Of a DNA stretch of 60,235 bases, positions 1 to 57,897 are shown piece after piece (the stretch's first letter is position 1; each line of letters begins with the position of its first letter). Source of the DNA: an uncultured Ignavibacteria bacterium (GTDB lineage Bacteria > Bacteroidota > Ignavibacteria > Kapaibacteriales > Kapaibacteriaceae); contig CALMZQ010000129.1 in the NCBI GenBank assembly GCA_937870915.1, forward strand, positions 1-60,235, written 5' to 3'. The notes beneath the pieces were generated by a model, which saw nothing but the letters and a program-made list of their open reading frames with translations, was not told the DNA's origin and did not search any database. The translations under genes and the position numbers were made by a program.

Positions 1-180
1 GTGACGTCGGGAGCCTTACTCTCCCGGAGTGACGTCGGGAGCCTTACTCTCCCGGAGTGACGTCGGGAGCCTTACTCTCCCGGAGTGACGTCGGGAGCCT
101 TACTCTCCCGGAGTGACGTCGGGAGCCTTACTCTCCCGGAGTGGCGTCGGGAGCCTTACTCTCCCGGAGTGACTCCCGAC
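1..180. repeat. Tandem array of a 28-bp unit containing a hairpin
   Basis: Six head-to-tail copies of a 28-bp unit start at 1, 29, 57, 85, 113 and 141; the sixth has GTGGCG for GTGACG. Each unit carries CGGGAG - CCTTACT - CTCCCG, a 6-bp stem with a 7-nt loop. The array closes at about 169-180 with ACTCCCGACGT, the reverse complement of the unit's ACGTCGGGAGT edge, so the whole block is bracketed by inverted ends. There are no spacers, so it is not CRISPR. The same unit recurs at about nine other intergenic sites in this window. Confidence 0.95.
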
Positions 181-6838: not shown

Positions 6839-7300
6839 ATGACATCAATTCCAAACTGGGCCGTAGACCATGTGCAGCGTGTGCTGCGTGTTGGCGAAGT
6901 AACGCGATTTATAGGATCCGGGAGGCTTGATGCAGTGCCCCCTAGCGGCATCTTGGCCATGATCTATTGGGTCACGTACATCATTACAAACTACGTTGCC
7001 ATCTTCGTCACCGCCTTCTTCCGCAACCGTGCCGTAATCGTCATCACCGATCAGCGCGTGATCATCGTAAGCGAGCGGTCGTGGAAATTCCCATTCTGGG
7101 TGATCCCGTATTCCCAACGTCTCATCACCGAAACAATCGCCGTGGCCGACATCACAAGCCTGAGCACCGTCAGCGCAAAGTTCCTCTGGATCCTCAGCGC
7201 CAACGGCATCCAGCTCGAATGCGAATCCGGAACCTCACGCATCATCAACGGCCTCAAAGCCGCAACGTTGGATGAGGCAAAAGCATATGTAAGGGGCTAG
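6839..7300 (+). CDS. Membrane protein with bacterial PH-like domain
   Basis: 153 aa. AAAGGGGC precedes the ATG by about 8 nt. Residues ~38-60 form a hydrophobic segment (GILAMIYWVTYIITNYVAIF). The following VIVITDQRVIIVSE is the strand pattern typical of bacterial PH (bPH/YdbT-like) domains, where a T-x-x-R motif begins the domain, and EDITSLSTV-like strands follow. The role is unknown; bPH proteins are often membrane-associated. It is a single gene with no clear operon partner. The PH-like call rests on motif pattern only. Confidence 0.6.
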   Translation: MTSIPNWAVDHVQRVLRVGEVTRFIGSGRLDAVPPSGILAMIYWVTYIITNYVAIFVTAFFRNRAVIVITDQRVIIVSERSWKFPFWVIPYSQRLITETIAVADITSLSTVSAKFLWILSANGIQLECESGTSRIINGLKAATLDEAKAYVRG

Positions 7301-30778: not shown

Positions 30779-30862
30779 ACGTCGGGAGTCTTACTCTCCC
30801 GGAGTGACGTCGGGAGTCTTACTCTCCCGGAGTGACGTCGGGAGTCTTACTCTCCCGGAGTG
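30779..30862. repeat. 28-bp family array, three units
   Basis: Three contiguous copies of the GTCTT variant, each with CGGGAG...CTCCCG. They lie 20 bp after the NlpC/P60-like stop and just before the intact PD-(D/E)XK gene, so the cassette is flanked by the same repeat on both sides. Confidence 0.95.
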
Positions 30863-30899
30863 AAAGCGTAACCCCGCATCTACGTATCTCGGAAACCCC

Positions 30900-33232: not shown

Positions 33233-33400
33233 CGAACAGTGAACGGTGAACAGCGAACAGCGTAACTCTGTAACTCCGTAACTCCGTAACTCCGTATCTC
33301 TCTTCAAGCCCCAACGGGGCGAAATCCCCCTAGCCCATGACGGAGTCATGGGAAGTAAGGCGACGGAGTCATGGGAAGTAAGGCGACGCAGTCGTTGGGA
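33233..33400. repeat. Composite intergenic repeat module
   Basis: In order: AGCGAAC-type 7-bp units (33233-33262), GTAACTCCGT 10-bp units (33261-33300), then a REP-like double hairpin: GCCCC-AAC-GGGGC (33308-33320) and CCCATGAC-GGA-GTCATGGG (33334-33352), the latter followed by duplicated GGGAAGTAAGGCGACG blocks. The same order is seen at 34310-34440, 39198-39480 and 40205-40320. Confidence 0.9.
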
Positions 33401-35005: not shown

Positions 35006-36294
35006 TCGCCGAGGTGCGACTGTGGGGACGGACGATCGGCGCTGTCACGATGGACGATGATGATCCCGTTGCGCGGTTCCAGTACGAATCGGACTTCGTC
35101 CGCAGCGGCATCGAAGTGTCGCCGATCACAATGCCCTTACACGAGCGGGTCTATGCCTTTCCGGCACTTGCACAGCGCACGTTTCATGGACTTCCGGGAC
35201 TCCTTGCTGACTCGCTCCCTGACACCTTCGGCAATGCCCTTATCAATGCCTGGCTTGCAACACAAGGTCGCACACCGGCAGAGTTCAGTACTCTTGAACG
35301 ACTGTGTTATACGGGCAATCGTGGGATGGGAGCGCTGGAGTTCGCACCCGCACAAGGTCCACGACAACGCACCTCGACGCCGCTCGCGATCGATGCCCTG
35401 GTGCAACTAGCAAGCGACGTGCTTCTGCATCGCTCTGCCCTTCATGGATCGATGCACGTTGATGAGGCATCTGCAACCATGCGCGACATCCTGCTTGTGG
35501 GAACATCGGCCGGAGGAGCGCGCGCGAAGGCATTGATCGCATGGAACAGGTTGACGAATGATGTGCGCTCCGGTCAGGTCAACGCGGGTGACGGTTATGA
35601 GTACTGGCTGCTGAAGTTCGATGGCGTGTCCGGCAATCGCGACAAAGAGCTCGATGATCCAAGGGGCTTTGGGGCTGTCGAGTATGCGTATTCAATGATG
35701 GCGAAGGCGGCAGGGATCGAGATGTCGGAATGTCGACTCCTTGAAGAGCAGGGTCGACGTCACTTCATGACGCGTCGATTCGATCGCGGTCCCCATGGTG
35801 AGAAGATCCACATGCAGTCTCTTTGCGCTCTCGCACACTACGACTTCAATGTTCCCGGCGTCTATTCCTATGAGCAGGCCATGATGGTGATGCGACAGAT
35901 CGGTTTGTCGGCCGCAGAGCTCGAGCAGTTCTACCGTCGCATGGTCTTCAACATCGTTGCCCGGAATCAAGATGATCACGTCAAGAACATCGCGTTTCTC
36001 ATGAACAAGCGCGGGGAGTGGTCGCTGGCTCCGGCATTCGATGTGACGTACAGCTATAACCCCTCGGGCGCGTGGACGTCCACGCATCAAATGTCGATGA
36101 ACGGGAAGCGTGACGGCCTTGTGCTCCAAGATCTTCAAGACTGCGCACGACCTGCACTCCTAAAACGCGGACGTTGGAAAGAGATCGTCGACGATGTGGT
36201 CACCTCCGTCCAACGCTGGCCAGAGTTCGCTGCCGAGGCACGTGTTGACGAGAGCATGGCAGGGAAGATCGGGCGAGCACATCGAGAACTGTGA
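35002..36294 (+). CDS. hipA: HipA-like serine/threonine kinase toxin
   Basis: 430 aa, close to the usual ~440. GTG start overlaps hipB's stop. Kinase features: GTSAGGARAK loop (167-176), LLKFDG (203-208), catalytic NQDDHVKN (322-329, D324 as catalytic Asp) and the metal-binding Asp in PAFDVTYS (D347). HipA phosphorylates a tRNA synthetase (GltX in the best-studied case) to stop translation and promote persistence. All key residues are present, so the toxin looks active. Confidence 0.93.
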   Translation: MIAEVRLWGRTIGAVTMDDDDPVARFQYESDFVRSGIEVSPITMPLHERVYAFPALAQRTFHGLPGLLADSLPDTFGNALINAWLATQGRTPAEFSTLERLCYTGNRGMGALEFAPAQGPRQRTSTPLAIDALVQLASDVLLHRSALHGSMHVDEASATMRDILLVGTSAGGARAKALIAWNRLTNDVRSGQVNAGDGYEYWLLKFDGVSGNRDKELDDPRGFGAVEYAYSMMAKAAGIEMSECRLLEEQGRRHFMTRRFDRGPHGEKIHMQSLCALAHYDFNVPGVYSYEQAMMVMRQIGLSAAELEQFYRRMVFNIVARNQDDHVKNIAFLMNKRGEWSLAPAFDVTYSYNPSGAWTSTHQMSMNGKRDGLVLQDLQDCARPALLKRGRWKEIVDDVVTSVQRWPEFAAEARVDESMAGKIGRAHREL

Positions 36295-36358
36295 ACAGCG
36301 AACAGCGAATAGCGAATAGCGAATAGCGAATAGCGAATCTCCGTAACTATGTAACTTA
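36293..36358. repeat. 7-bp AGCGAAY array with GTAACT tail
   Basis: About six AGCGAAC/AGCGAAT units start right at the hipA stop, then CTCCGTAACTATGTAACT. It is the same order as in the composite modules but without the double hairpin. It lies between the convergent hipA and T9SS genes. Confidence 0.9.
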
Positions 36359-39200: not shown

Positions 39201-39376
39201 ACAGCGAACAGCGAATCTCCGTAACTCCGTAACTCCGTAACTCTGTAACTCTGTAACTCCGTATCTCCGTAACTCCGTACCTCTCCTCAAGCCCCAACGG
39301 GGCGAAATCCCGCTAGCCCATGACGCAGTCATGGGAAGTAAAGCGACGCAGGGGAAGTAAAGCGACGCAGGCGTGA
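39198..39376. repeat. Composite repeat module
   Basis: Starts within the pentapeptide gene's stop: AGCGAAC units, then about eight GTAACTCCGT/GTAACTCTGT units to ~39280, GCCCCAACGGGGC hairpin (~39292-39304), CCCATGACGCAGTCATGGG hairpin (~39318-39336), then two GGAAGTAAAGCGACGCAG tails. Confidence 0.9.
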
Positions 39377-40204: not shown

Positions 40205-40453
40205 CACGCGTCCGTAGCTCTGTAACTCCGTACCTCTCTTCAAGCCCCAACGGGGCGAAATCCCGCTAGCCCATGACGTAGTCATGGGAAGTAAAGCGAC
40301 GTAGGCGTGGGAAGAAAGCGCATCAGGCGTGGCAATGATGTCCGGTGTCAATTATCCATTTCAGGAAGTTATAGCGCTCAATGCAGGGAGATCACTCCGG
40401 GAGCGTTACTCTCCCGGAGTGACGTCGGGAGCCTTACTCTCCCGGAGTGACGG
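40205..40453. repeat. Composite repeat module plus 28-bp array
   Basis: GTAACTCCGT units (40207-40236), GCCCCAACGGGGC and CCCATGACGTAGTCATGGG hairpins (about 40244-40290), AAGTAAAGCGACG tails, then after ~70 bp two 28-bp-family units at 40391-40453. Next to them GGGCTAAAGCCC (40471-40482) adds another small palindrome. This accounts for nearly all of the 305-bp gap before the next gene. Confidence 0.85.
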
Positions 40454-40508
40454 CGTATCTCCATACGTCGGGCTAAAGCCCGACGCTAGTATCTCCCTAT
40501 CTTCCTCC

Positions 40509-42140
40509 ATGATTCGTGCCATCCTTTTCCTCTTCCTCCTCGCCCCCTCTCTTTATGCTCAGAGGGGATGGATCCTCTACGACTCAACGTGGGGACAGCC
40601 GTTTCAGCGGTGGGAGGCAACGTCATTCATCACCTCGCCGTGTGATCCGCAGTATGATCGGATCCGCGATCTCATGCTCGATAGTCTTGTGCGGTTCACA
40701 GGCGTGAATCGGTTGCGCGTGGAGGTTCGTGCGGGGTCGGAGAATCCGGTTGATCACTATGCGGAATGGCGCGCGGCAGGATGTCCGGGTGGATCAGATC
40801 CGGCATATCTGCGGTGGCGACAAAACCGCTACGTAACGGTCAACGACAATGATGATTCAACGATCAATGAAGGGGGCTTCCACTTCACGGAATTGGATGC
40901 TACGATCGAGAATGTTGTGATCCCTCTTCGTACACGTTTAGAATCCAAGGGCGAAGACCTGCATGTGAATGTGTGTTATGTAGCATTCACGGGACAGAAC
41001 GGGGGCGGAACGTATATCCACGACCGACCACATGAATACGCAGAGTTCGTCCTTGCCGTGCACCAACACCTCAAGAAGAAGTGGAACATCGTACCGGATT
41101 CATGGGAGGCAGTTCTCGAGCCCGACCTCGTTCCGCAGTGGACGGCTCAAAAACTCGGCGCAGCGCTGAATGCAACTGCGATCACACTCCGCAATAACGG
41201 TTTTGAACCGCGGTTCGTTGCCCCCTCTACAACGAACATGTCCAATGCCATCCCGTGGACAAAACAGATCGTTGCGTACCCTGATGTAAAGGCAGCGTTG
41301 AAGGAAATGAGCTACCATCGCTATTCCGGTACCGCTGATTCTGTTGCCTTTGCGATACGGAGATACGCAGATACCCTCGGCATCGGCACGTCGATGTTAG
41401 AGTGGTGGTTCGATAATGCTACACCCGTAGTACTGTGGACTGATCTGATGTATGCCGGGAACACGTCTTGGCAAGAGGCAACGATAAGCGGTCACTTCAA
41501 TCTTGTACGCGAAGGAGATTCAGTGCGCATCACGCGTAAGAAGAACGCCATTCTCAATGGCATCCTTTCGCGATATGTGAAGCCCGGAGCTGTGCGAGTT
41601 GAGGATAGCAATCAGGACGTCGTGTTTCGGAACACAGACGGTTCAATCGTAGCGTATCAAGCGAGGAATTTTCAAACGTCATTAGATCGCGGGTGGCCGA
41701 CTGGACAGTGTACATTGGTGCGTGTTGATTCCCTGCTTCTTGAGAACGAAAGACAATGGAGTCGTACCAAGGAAGATTCAAACTCACGATCGAGTCTCCC
41801 GATCCATCGTGGAGATCTGGCATTTGTCTTCATCATTCAACCAAACACCGTTGGAGTAGACGAACACCAGCCCCCTACGCTCAAGAACATCATTGTTTCG
41901 CCGATGCCCGTGAAGGACAACATCTCTATCACCGTACCGCACGAGTGGGACGGACTGCCACTGCACATACGTATAGTAGACATGCAGGGCAGAGTTGTGA
42001 TGTCGGTCTCGGATGGTGACGTGTCCGTTGGGTCGTCCGGTCCTCTCTCCATTCCCATCGACCTCTCCAACGGACAATATGCCGTGGAGTGTGTGGTAGG
42101 GGGCGAAGCAGCACGCACAGTTATCGTCGTTGATAAATGA
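40509..42140 (+). CDS. Secreted glycoside-hydrolase-like T9SS protein
   Basis: 543 aa from ATG 40509, which starts the signal peptide MIRAILFLFLLAPSLYA; the open frame further upstream is repeat. The central ~350 residues look like a (beta/alpha)8 barrel of the GH30/GH-A type: VEVRAGSENPVDHY, a VLEPDLVPQW strand with possible acid/base E204, and GTSMLEWWFDNAT with possible nucleophile E298. The final ~80 residues form a T9SS sorting domain (KNIIVSPMPVKDNISI, RIVDMQGRVVMSV, SNGQYAVECVVG). Predicted surface carbohydrate hydrolase; the enzyme class is inferred and the substrate is unknown. Its TGA is part of the next repeat. Confidence 0.7.
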   Translation: MIRAILFLFLLAPSLYAQRGWILYDSTWGQPFQRWEATSFITSPCDPQYDRIRDLMLDSLVRFTGVNRLRVEVRAGSENPVDHYAEWRAAGCPGGSDPAYLRWRQNRYVTVNDNDDSTINEGGFHFTELDATIENVVIPLRTRLESKGEDLHVNVCYVAFTGQNGGGTYIHDRPHEYAEFVLAVHQHLKKKWNIVPDSWEAVLEPDLVPQWTAQKLGAALNATAITLRNNGFEPRFVAPSTTNMSNAIPWTKQIVAYPDVKAALKEMSYHRYSGTADSVAFAIRRYADTLGIGTSMLEWWFDNATPVVLWTDLMYAGNTSWQEATISGHFNLVREGDSVRITRKKNAILNGILSRYVKPGAVRVEDSNQDVVFRNTDGSIVAYQARNFQTSLDRGWPTGQCTLVRVDSLLLENERQWSRTKEDSNSRSSLPIHRGDLAFVFIIQPNTVGVDEHQPPTLKNIIVSPMPVKDNISITVPHEWDGLPLHIRIVDMQGRVVMSVSDGDVSVGSSGPLSIPIDLSNGQYAVECVVGGEAARTVIVVDK

Positions 42141-42193
42141 CGTCGGGAGCCTTACTCTCCCGGAGTGACGTCGGGAGACTTACGTGCCGGGAG
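42138..42193. repeat. 28-bp family, one full and one degenerate unit
   Basis: One intact unit starts with the TGA that serves as stop of the upstream gene (TGACGTCGGGAG), followed by a degenerate unit ending GTGCCGGGAGAG directly against the cyclase start at 42196. The repeat therefore forms the entire intergenic spacer. Confidence 0.9.
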
Positions 42194-42195
42194 AG

Positions 42196-44193
42196 ATGCG
42201 CATCTTTGCATCTATGAATGTCCGCACGCTTGGAGAACTTGAAGACGCCGTTCGTGTTGCGAAAGGCATCAGCGACACAAAAGCGCTACTGCAATGTGCA
42301 ATAGAGCTCGACGCGCTGGGAACAACACAAGCACGTGCCTCGTCTGCGAATGCCCGTGGTATAGCAGAGTTGCTATCGAACAATTATGCAGGAGCACTAG
42401 AGTTCTTTCACGCAGCCCTCGGCTTGCTTGATGAGCTTGGCGATCGCAGTGGCGTGGCTCGCGCAACCGGGAATATTGGATCCGTGTATCTGGGCACCGG
42501 CAACTACAAAGCAGCGCACGAGAATTACCACCGTTCACTGGAAGTGCACACAGCCCTTGGTAATCTCAATGGCGTGGCCGTCATGTCCATGGGAATCGGT
42601 AATGTCTACAAGGAAACCGGTGATTTCACGTCCGCCCTGGAGTTCTATCATCGTGCGCTTCAACTCTACAAGGAATGTGACGATCGGATTGGTGAAGCAG
42701 CTGTTTCAAGGGGCATCGCAAACGTACATAGTGCCACCGGCAACTATCCGGTTGCACTGGAGTTCTATCACCGTGCGCTCAACCTTCACGAGGAACTGGG
42801 CGACCGTCTTGGAGTAGCGCGCGTCACCTCTAGTATCGGCCTTGTCGATAATCTTACCGGACACTACGCCGCAGCCCTTGACCACTACCACAGGGCTCTC
42901 GCCATTTTTGAAGAGCTTGGCGCAAGGCAGGATATGGCACATCTGTGCAGTAACATCGGTAGTGTACACGGCAATACCGGCAACAACAGCGCAGCGTTAG
43001 AGTATTTCCGTCGTGCATTGCCCCTTTTCATAGAAATGGAAGATCAGAGCGGTGTTGCGGGAGTCACCAGTAACATCACGTCGGCATTAGCCCATTCTGG
43101 GTCCTTCGCCGAAGCAGAAGAACACCTTCAAAAACTAGATGCCATGGACATCCTCGTTCCCGGCATCTTACTCACAAGGGAACAAACCAGGGCCATCCTC
43201 CAAGAGCAAACAGGCAATATCGATGATGCAGCACACACACTTCAAGCAGCTTTGGAGCTAGCACGTACACATGGACTGGCTTTGGAGCAGGCCGGGTTCC
43301 ACAAGGAATTGCGAGATATCTGCCAAAAGAAGAACGACTTTGCCGGCTACATCGAACACAACAACGAATTCACGCGCATCATCGAAGAGATCAACGGCAA
43401 AGACACAGCAACAAAGCTTGCCATGCAAGCAAAGCAACGCGAGATCGAAGCCGTTCAGCGTGAGCATCAAAAACACATGGCCGTGTTGCACTCCACGTTA
43501 CCAAAGCACATTGCTGATAGAGTAGCAAGGGGCGAGGTGGTCAATGACCATCACGAAAATTCCTCCGTGCTATTCCTGGACATTGTCGGCTTTACCGATC
43601 TCTCTTCGCAACTCGATTCTCGAACCGTGATCGAGATCCTTGATGACGTCTTTTCAAAGTGTGATGCTATCTGCGCAAAACACCAGGTAACGAAGATCAA
43701 GACCATTGGTGATTCCTACATGGCAGTCGCCTTTGGAACAGCGAATCAAATAGCGAATAGCGAGCAGCGAATAGCGAACCAAATAGCGAATAGTGAGCAG
43801 CGAATAGCGAATCAAATAGCGAATAGCGAGCAGCGATCAGCGAATCCCGCAGTGCGGGCTGCGAGTGCTGCAAGAGAGATGATGAAAATCACTCTCAACG
43901 AAGAGCTTAACAAGGCGCTTGAAAAGGCGCTTAACAAGGCGCTTATAAGATTCAGAATAGGCATTCATTGCGGCCCAGTCACTGCCGGGGTGATTGGCAA
44001 GGAGCGCATGCAGTATGATGTATGGGGCGACACGGTGAACGTTGCGAGCCGGATGGAATCCTCGAGTGAGCCAGGAAAGATCCATATCTCACAGGCGTTC
44101 AACGAAGCGCTTAATGAGACTCACACCGCGCCAAGGGGAGAAATGGAAATAAAGGGCAAGGGGCTCATGCTAACGTATTGGTTGGAGAACTGA
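42196..44193 (+). CDS. TPR - class III adenylate cyclase with an in-frame repeat insertion
   Basis: 665 aa; the ATG at 42196 follows GGGAGAG, and an ATG at 42214 is possible. Residues ~20-400 are TPRs (for example TGNIGSVYLGTGNYKAAHE), with a short coiled coil near 420. The class III cyclase domain has metal Asp D462 (FLDIVGFTD) and D506 (TIGDSYMA), purine-specifying K502 and D608 (YDVWGD), and transition-state N615 and R619 (VNVASRM). So it should make cAMP in the cytoplasm. Residues ~516-550 are three copies of an 11-residue NQIANSEQRIA-type unit encoded by the intergenic AGCGAAY repeat, followed by a 12-bp LNKA/LEKA repeat. Both fall in the strand-helix region after D506, where cyclases vary in length, so activity may survive. 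Confidence 0.92.
   Translation: MRIFASMNVRTLGELEDAVRVAKGISDTKALLQCAIELDALGTTQARASSANARGIAELLSNNYAGALEFFHAALGLLDELGDRSGVARATGNIGSVYLGTGNYKAAHENYHRSLEVHTALGNLNGVAVMSMGIGNVYKETGDFTSALEFYHRALQLYKECDDRIGEAAVSRGIANVHSATGNYPVALEFYHRALNLHEELGDRLGVARVTSSIGLVDNLTGHYAAALDHYHRALAIFEELGARQDMAHLCSNIGSVHGNTGNNSAALEYFRRALPLFIEMEDQSGVAGVTSNITSALAHSGSFAEAEEHLQKLDAMDILVPGILLTREQTRAILQEQTGNIDDAAHTLQAALELARTHGLALEQAGFHKELRDICQKKNDFAGYIEHNNEFTRIIEEINGKDTATKLAMQAKQREIEAVQREHQKHMAVLHSTLPKHIADRVARGEVVNDHHENSSVLFLDIVGFTDLSSQLDSRTVIEILDDVFSKCDAICAKHQVTKIKTIGDSYMAVAFGTANQIANSEQRIANQIANSEQRIANQIANSEQRSANPAVRAASAAREMMKITLNEELNKALEKALNKALIRFRIGIHCGPVTAGVIGKERMQYDVWGDTVNVASRMESSSEPGKIHISQAFNEALNETHTAPRGEMEIKGKGLMLTYWLEN
43740..43845. 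repeat. Frame-preserving 33-bp repeat inside the cyclase domain
   Basis: Three copies of a 33-bp composite: CAAAT plus four 7-bp AGCGANY units (5 + 28 = 33 bp), so each adds exactly 11 codons. The 7-bp unit is the same as in intergenic arrays at 33.2, 36.3, 39.2 and 57.8 kb. A second small in-frame repeat, CTTAACAAGGCG-type (12 bp, three copies), lies at 43905-43943. Confidence 0.93.
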
Positions 44194-44945: not shown

Positions 44946-45000
44946 GTGACGTCGGGAGCCTTACTCTCCCGGAGTGACGTCGGGAGCCTTACTCTCCCGG
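44946..45000. repeat. 28-bp family, two units
   Basis: Two direct copies between the divergent peroxiredoxin and lipoprotein genes. Because this gap holds 5' ends of both genes, here the repeat is not at a gene 3' end, an exception to the usual pattern. Confidence 0.93.
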
Positions 45001-51779: not shown

Positions 51780-51837
51780 CCCCGTAGCCCCGTAACTGAG
51801 TAACTACGTAACTGAGTAACTGACTTACTCCGTAACT
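51780..51837. repeat. GTAACTGAGTAACT-type 10-bp array
   Basis: Five to six degenerate units of the GTAACTCCGT family directly upstream of the pRiA4b-like gene, which starts 7 bp later. Here the array occupies the promoter/5' region. Confidence 0.85.
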
Positions 51838-54145: not shown

Positions 54146-54165
54146 AGAAATGACAACCAAGGCAT

Positions 54166-54274
54166 TATGACGTTATGACAATCATGACAATCATGACGTT
54201 ATGACAATCATGACAATCATGACGTTATGACAATCATGACAATCATGACAATCATGACGTTATGACAATCATGA
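54166..54274. repeat. TGACAATCA / TGACGTTA array
   Basis: A 9-bp TGACAATCA unit alternates irregularly with an 8-bp TGACGTTA unit over about 110 bp, giving a higher-order pattern (one TGACGTTA after two or three TGACAATCA). Confidence 0.9.
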
Positions 54275-54283
54275 CTTTTCTCT

Positions 54284-54362
54284 AGCACTCTAGCACACTA
54301 GCATACTAGCACACTAGCATACTAGCACACTAACTCACTAGCACATTAGCACTCTAGCACTA
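54284..54362. repeat. AGCACACT 8-bp array with AGCACTCT and AGCATACT variants
   Basis: About ten 8-bp units follow the TGACAATCA array. The CTA at 54360-54362, read on the minus strand, is the TAG stop of the next gene, so repeat and coding sequence touch. Confidence 0.9.
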
Positions 54363-56507: not shown

Positions 56508-56551
56508 ATTCACCTAACATCAGATTGCCGAGATCGTTACAGAGTCACACA

Positions 56552-56651
56552 CTTGCATACTAGCACACTAGCACACTAGCACTCTAACACTCTAACACTC
56601 TAACACTCTAGCATTCTAACACTCTAGCATTCTAGCACTCTAGCACACTAA
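56552..56651. repeat. AGCACACT / AACACTCT 8-bp array
   Basis: About 12 units in several variants (AGCACACT, AACACTCT, AGCATTCT). The final CTA (56648-56650) is the TAG stop of the next gene on the minus strand. Confidence 0.9.
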
Positions 56652-57790: not shown

Positions 57791-57897
57791 GAATAGCGAA
57801 TAGCGAATAGCGAATAGCCGCTGTAATGCCAAGCGGAGTCGAGGCGCTGTCCTAAAATGATGAAATGACGTAGTGACGTAATGACGTAGGGTGATGA
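57791..57897. repeat. AGCGAAT array and short TGACGTAG repeat
   Basis: Four AGCGAAT units at ~57794-57822, then ATGACGTAGTGACGTAATG-type 8-9 bp repeats at 57862-57895. They lie in the divergent region between the DUF2911 and Asp-box genes. Confidence 0.8.

Follow-up and report, generated by a model that had tools for sequence, protein, structure and literature searches.

Seven-base repeats of a kind that lies mostly between genes are read as protein inside the catalytic domain of a cyclase gene in the DNA analysed here, and this raises the question of how such an insert could enter an enzyme whose reading frame stays open. The window, by which we mean the whole stretch of 60,235 nucleotides, comes from an uncultured Ignavibacteria bacterium whose genome (the source genome, G000) is a 3.3-Mb draft in 233 contigs.

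Two repeat arrays in a class III cyclase gene

The gene and its parts are arranged as follows, the positions of individual residues having been computed:

42184–44193, + strand: TPR protein with a class III adenylate/guanylate cyclase domain; GTG start, 669 aa, ATG at 42196, intact open frame
43579–43713, + strand: first catalytic half, 5′ of the insert, with D466 (43579), K506 (43699) and D510 (43711)
43736–43846, + strand: Loop A array, 3.4 copies of 33 bp (CAAAT plus four AGCGANY-type heptamers), residues about 519–555, from TRF and codons
43747–43779, 43780–43812 and 43813–43845, + strand: the three 33-bp units of Loop A, with pairwise differences of 2, 3 and 3 bases
43905–43945, + strand: Loop B array, 3.4 copies of 12 bp, AAGGCGCTTNNN family, LNKALEKALNKAL, shortly 5′ of FRIGIHCG, from TRF
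43954–44052, + strand: second catalytic half, 3′ of the insert, with RIGIHCG (43954), D612 (44017), N619 (44038) and R623 (44050)

The gene belongs to the class III cyclases by its domain, which matched PF00211 above the curated threshold (171.9 bits against a cut-off of 21.9, residues 454–668), and TPR families were also matched. Named relatives are labelled Bacteroidetes, Ignavibacteria, Candidatus Kapaibacterium or just bacterium, and no close insert-free orthologue was found, full-length matches being about 50–54% identical. Residues D466, K506, D510, D612, N619 and R623 (counted from the GTG at 42184) are present and invariant in a six-protein alignment; we take D466 and D510 to be the metal aspartates, K506 and D612 the adenine-specifying residues and N619 and R623 the transition-state residues. 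The original prediction had placed the insert between D506 and D608 with the catalytic residues retained, and the alignment agrees on both points; those numbers are right when counted from the ATG at 42196 and become D510 and D612 when counted from the GTG. Loops A and B both lie between KIKTIGDSYM and RIGIHCG.

A structure predicted from six proteins, with the insert in place, reached a mean pLDDT of 79; the cyclase part scored lower, and its catalytic portion is of modest confidence. Four further sequences stayed outside this set: L014 and L015, which gave stop codons, L016, which is spread over two frames, and L011. In this model the Loop A insert is placed between the strand at 511–517 and the helix at 555–566, with very low pLDDT (<50) at residues 520–552. 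A Foldseek search with the model returned TPR proteins on top and its first cyclase at rank 22. The protein matches bacterial class III adenylyl cyclases of solved structure (5o5k, Rv1625c) in sequence and fold, with catalytic residues kept, but unlike in those proteins an insert splits the sequence match. Judged from its sequence, the enzyme probably still works with the insert.

The in-frame units of CAAAT plus four heptamers reported for Loop A were recovered by TRF as a 33-bp unit (3.4 copies, 91% matches, 43736–43846, about 111 bp), and the ORF is open throughout. Eleven of the 12 heptamers in the three units fit AGCGANY, the remaining one being AGTGAGC, and the encoded peptide is NQIANSEQRIA three times with an altered end. 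The copies vary at four positions, of which two are silent and two alter one codon (ATA to TCA), too few sites for a selection test.

Loop B carries a different array that encodes the peptide ELNKALEKALNKAL. Its 12-bp family also occurs on contigs C216, C46 and C20 of the source genome, so that the window gene bears two unrelated repeat families of that genome in neighbouring loops. Identical copies of the unit AAGGCGCTTAAC stand behind a gene on C216, where the array directly abuts the TAA stop of a 648-aa ORF; on C46 the copy lies in a 306-codon frame but in antisense orientation, and on C20 it falls in no frame of at least 150 codons. The earlier reading of the sequence had overlooked this second family at 43905–43945, as well as the recurrence of repeats in the same loops of other cyclases described below.

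The heptamer family and its in-frame stop codon

We found that the Loop A heptamers belong to a seven-base tandem unit dispersed over many sites on both strands of the source genome, where three successive AGCGANY units gave 81 forward and 81 reverse matches and a reversed control pattern gave 0. The narrower AGCGAAY pattern was confined to two of the 23 family genomes, with 75+72 matches in the source genome and 6+5 in one congener; the remaining 21 had 0. Across some 386 kb of the source genome, 30 of 41 array rows were outside ORFs, and the family lies mostly outside genes and near gene ends in these regions, which were biased to cyclases and partly chosen for arrays; because many of the stretches were chosen for containing arrays, heptamer densities are not genome averages. 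Eight of the 30 non-ORF arrays start in a stop codon, a T plus the first GA forming the TGA of the preceding ORF, versus 2.1% expected if arrays fell at random in intergenic gaps; a simple rule served to call the ORFs. Arrays of this kind were seen in the window and at loci L110, L111, L117, L118, L126 and L189. The insert is thus, as had been proposed, a member of an abundant and mostly intergenic repeat family, in frame and inside a catalytic domain. Two further heptamer arrays lie in the window:

36293–36338, + strand: intergenic heptamer array whose first unit completes the TGA stop (36292–36294) of the upstream ORF
57791–57818, + strand: heptamer array of 4 copies (TRF) within an opposite-strand ORF

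The remaining 11 rows are inside ORFs, five of them in sense orientation in three genes, namely the window cyclase, a paralogue on contig C112 and a gene on contig C104, so that in-frame copies occur inside otherwise open genes. The unit AGCGAGC is rare outside genes, at 1 of 138 units, against 3 of 24 inside them, and a non-gene array on contig C67 has this rare unit followed by a CAAAT-like spacer. A hairpin-type element like the Rickettsia palindromic elements was considered and rejected, the fold (z +2.0) being weaker than that of shuffled sequences, 197 of 200 of which fold as well. When stretches of the window cyclase gene were ranked by how often their 12-mers recur outside cyclases, 0 of 1345 other stretches of that gene were as high as its loop (378 kb searched, partly chosen for arrays); this result and the reversed control show that the likeness is not due to chance. 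The ranking is clear for two cyclases of the source genome and one of G020; it is unclear for G012, a genome of the sister genus, because unmasked paralogues gave high values elsewhere in genes.

In the original prediction, frame could be kept by the 5+28 composite but not by the pure 7-bp unit. The statement on the pure unit was mistaken, as the C104 gene reads 14 pure heptamers in frame, and the composite is rejected as the sole frame-keeping solution. Heptamers can keep frame (7 × 3 = 21), but a pure AGCGAAT array runs into one TAG in every 21 bases whichever forward frame is read, and the real filter on heptamer capture is TAG. In the three sense genes the would-be in-frame TAG reads CAG at 9 of 9 sites; in the other phases the base that would make TAG is T 17 times and C 3 times (Fisher p 2.2e-5). 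This p-value is optimistic, since neither the sites of an array nor the paralogues of a genome are independent. Of the 31 further arrays with at least four units, 9 have an open sense frame and 22 have none; among those with at least nine units, 0 of 9 is open in any sense frame. Capture therefore needs either an earlier change or one of the rare arrays that are already open.

The C104 gene offers a comparison with empty sites:

G000:C104 (L119 8376–9608, also L199), − strand: gene with 14 in-frame heptamers, adjoining a sigma-70-like gene

It reads GIANSEQRIANSEQRIANSEQRTENSEQRIANSE across the heptamers, just behind a hydrophobic stretch (judged by eye), and its protein had no Pfam family match. 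Matches to the gene were found in all 22 other family genomes searched, those in G006 being short and confined to the repeat. Where C104 has its array, the closest orthologues, two genes of the same genus at 68% and 69% identity, show a short linker of unrelated sequence, and the G012 and G020 orthologues have other repetitive linkers there (RDTEVGRSEAS and a Q-rich one, respectively). A G012 gene in L162 was also considered as the orthologue of the gene in L119, which BLASTP did not support; the G012 orthologue was located elsewhere. The C104 array is itself a candidate for frame switching through 7-bp slippage.

Repeat arrays in loops of related cyclases

A PF00211 search of 11 family genomes yielded 110 matches, counting fragments. 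With a profile built from 26 domains of G045 and G033 we collected 92 family ORFs that were long enough, of which 90 were usable, and counted TRF arrays (score at least 50) between position 100 and the end of each open frame. Loops A/B and C make up 12% of these proteins (6,322 of 51,383 residues) and hold 795 of the 879 array residues; of the rest, 59 are in the TPR or linker part, 25 in the tail and 0 in the 11,526 core residues. Altogether 27 genes bear an array in loops A/B or C. Loop A/B is occupied in 2 of 8 genes of the source genome, 7 of 30 in G012, 2 of 20 in G020 and 1 of 2 in G011, and loop C in 13, 8 and 1 genes of the latter three genomes. The loops are not always filled, since seven of the 11 family genomes had no loop arrays among 30 cyclases; two genomes of other families in the same order likewise had 0 among 39.

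Each of three genomes uses its own repeats in these loops. Outside cyclases, loop 12-mers were matched in their own genome at 5.6 (G000), 12.6 (G012) and 19.9 (G020) matches per k-mer per Mb, versus 0–1.6 in the 11 other genomes of each row. In the own-genome test all found cyclase ORFs were masked, G000 was represented by the window only and G012 regions picked for repeats were excluded; the G000 figure rests on 9 of 116 loop 12-mers matched elsewhere in the window. G011 goes against this pattern, with 0.81 at home (40 kb) and 1.49 in G012. Periods divisible by three were found in 24 of 39 loop arrays versus 26 of 112 intergenic arrays of the four genomes (p 2e-5, again optimistic), the other 15 loop arrays having other periods; G020 shows the opposite, with 2 of 12 loop arrays divisible by three and 10 of 12 not.

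The C112 paralogue is 50% identical to the window cyclase and carries an AGCGAGC unit in the same phase, so the two may share the capture by descent or exchange. It also has an array of its own:

L110 (G000:C112) 7001–7081: four copies of a 21-bp unit encoding AREQTGI, with inner palindrome CCCGT..ACGGG

No other copy of this unit was found in four genomes, and none in G000 at up to 3 mismatches, so that some loop arrays arise by local duplication alone. In G003, a cyclase loop A (L087, G003:C61, 1771–1791) contains RSFADAQDD, a peptide known from repeat-derived ORFs in other bacteria; the G003 stretches examined held no second copy.

A frame comparison is available in G012, where the unit GTGTCSCAC has 126+68 matches. 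Inside cyclases the distance from one copy to the next is divisible by three in 82 of 82 steps, against 53 of 72 elsewhere (p 1.2e-7, optimistic since copies are not independent). Of the 19 exceptions elsewhere, 17 are 13-bp steps, several with CTAG; 16 of the 72 non-cyclase steps, all of 12 bp, lie in one other ORF (L162), and excluding them leaves 37 of 56. A block in L160 between two convergent ORFs, overlapping the end of one, aligns to loop C in all 11 cyclases given (77–84% identity over 60–201 columns). The ORF in L162 (998–2329, G012:C7) lies beside a sigma-70-like gene and reads GTGTCSCAC as SVPQ; in cyclases the unit is read as VSHx. The earlier suggestion that selection for frame is visible stands through TAG avoidance and these multiple-of-three steps, and falls in the form of the 5+28 argument on which it had relied.

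Origin of the inserts and relation to known repeats

We consider it quite likely that tolerant loops take up gene-end repeats and that those which do not stay open are purged. On this reading, whose direction from intergenic region to gene and whose mutational steps are suggested by sequence comparison, gene-end heptamers would spread or expand in the genome, by means not seen here, and a stretch of intergenic array would have come into the loop that joins a core strand to the helix after it. The in-frame TAG would have been lost by a change of GAA TAG to GAG CAG, and the length may have become divisible by three as five heptamers minus two bases; the 5+28 unit is readable in this way, CAAAT being AGCGAAT without AG and with G changed to A. 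Slippage or unequal exchange would then have raised the number of 33-bp blocks to three by duplication. Since the C67 array already has AGCGAGC and a CAAAT-like spacer, a nearly open piece may have been captured. More generally, fragments in loops and linkers may survive if the frame and TAG problems are solved, and in-frame units may then duplicate. The loop probably tolerates an insert because it lies apart from the catalytic residues in the sequence and has very low model confidence, like disordered segments; as the same loops of related cyclases took other repeats, loop tolerance together with the repeat load of the genome would explain the pattern.

Several other explanations could account for parts of these data. 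It is quite improbable that the loops simply expanded their own codons by local slippage, with their likeness to intergenic repeats due to coincidence or shared base composition: the AREQTGI unit has no other copies in the source genome, 107 of 116 loop 12-mers there are unmatched elsewhere in the window, and the native helix residues ERIAN/ERIAA resemble the repeat peptide EQRIAN, so that a native seed is conceivable; however, the own-genome enrichment of loop 12-mers in three of four genomes, the identical Loop B units after the C216 gene and the C104 orthologues, which have no seed at the array site, argue against it. The opposite direction, in which repeats were born in coding loops and then spread to intergenic regions, would suit the C67 non-gene array with its gene-like unit, and the data do not order the two; we regard it as very improbable, since most arrays lie outside genes, those with TAG in all sense frames predominate, the excess of starts in stop codons suits a gene-end family and the C104 comparison fits arrival in a gene.

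The arrays could also act as a switch, in which 7-base slippage toggles the cyclase or the C104 gene (phase variation) or 33- and 12-bp changes tune loop length. One heptamer gained or lost would shift the frame of C104, and the segment between the two motifs varies from 48 to 94 residues in the cyclases listed, but the window cyclase has periods of 33 and 12 and the preference of loop arrays for periods divisible by three is the opposite of on–off switching, which leaves this account improbable. Misassembly or a chimaera in a draft of 233 contigs would fit the arrays found at contig ends (C118:5, C46:165 and window 1–173); given that the gene remains collinear, with its frame open, on either side, that the array spans only about 111 bp and that other genomes show the same loop pattern, it is scarcely credible. 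In a wider form, capture from gene ends would make the loops of this cyclase family recurrent landing sites that turn the current intergenic repeats of each lineage into protein, so that paralogues would come to differ in loop length and charge more rapidly than point mutation allows, which would give each lineage its own means of tuning cAMP signalling, and sigma-factor-linked membrane-type proteins would do likewise in the linker after a hydrophobic stretch; we regard this extension as rather unlikely.

In-frame repeat capture is already known, and what is new here is its occurrence in the loops of a single enzyme family, where genera differ in the repeats they use; the matches listed in a search of open-licence literature held no description of repeat capture in cyclase loops. 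In the available text of MacGregor 2015 (PMC4679880), TAACTGA heptamers of Beggiatoaceae, Cyanobacteria and Bacteroidetes form many intergenic arrays, most of them just upstream of start codons, with stops in all forward frames. Forward in-gene copies are described there only at ORF ends, and 11 ORFs with internal copies have the reverse orientation, internal copies being mostly in short proteins of unknown function or near protein ends. Common to TAACTGA and AGCGANY are arrays that overlap the stop of the upstream gene and a minority of in-gene copies (PMC4679880); unlike what is described for TAACTGA, forward copies lie here inside a catalytic domain with TAG removed, and one protein family carries different repeats in each genome (PMC4679880). 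The GGGAATC and GGGGAYT heptamers of Xanthomonas and Nostoc are, in the portion of Rehm 2015 available (PMC4692102), genome-dispersed and mostly outside genes, and they likewise favour the sense strand <50 bp from stop codons, some overlapping the stop; they are G-rich and quadruplex-forming, whereas AGCGAAY does not look so, and that portion contains no protein-level analysis of copies inside genes. Rickettsia palindromic elements, according to the available account (PMC10969869), are likewise a dispersed family also found in frame inside genes, but they are about 150 bp long with a conserved peptide; here we see tandem heptamers without a strong hairpin, and genomes share loops rather than the repeat sequence.

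The cyclases provide a countable, repeated natural experiment in the conversion of non-coding repeats to protein, in which several genomes have different repeats in the same loops, orthologues of a second gene have empty sites and the arrays bear marks of selection to stay in an open frame. For annotation and alignment of these Kapabacteria-like genomes it matters that real proteins can be lengthened or broken up by gene-end repeats.

Other repeats of the window also touch gene ends:

42138–42193, + strand: array of a 28-bp palindromic repeat 5′ of the cyclase, its first bases being the TGA stop of ORF 40329–42140

This repeat (TGACGTCGGGAG..CTCCCGG) occurs at 1–173, 30779–30863, 40398–40452, 42138–42193, from 44191 onwards and at 44946–45000, and supplies the TGA stop of both ORF 40329–42140 and the window cyclase. 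By appearance it resembles the CGTC-tagged REP as described in the available text of PMC3733652. Arrays with periods of 8 to 35 lie at 33261–33300, 39217–39283, 51791–51837, 54150–54360 and 56548–56650; their units contain TAA, TAG or TGA, and some are within a few bases of ORF stops.
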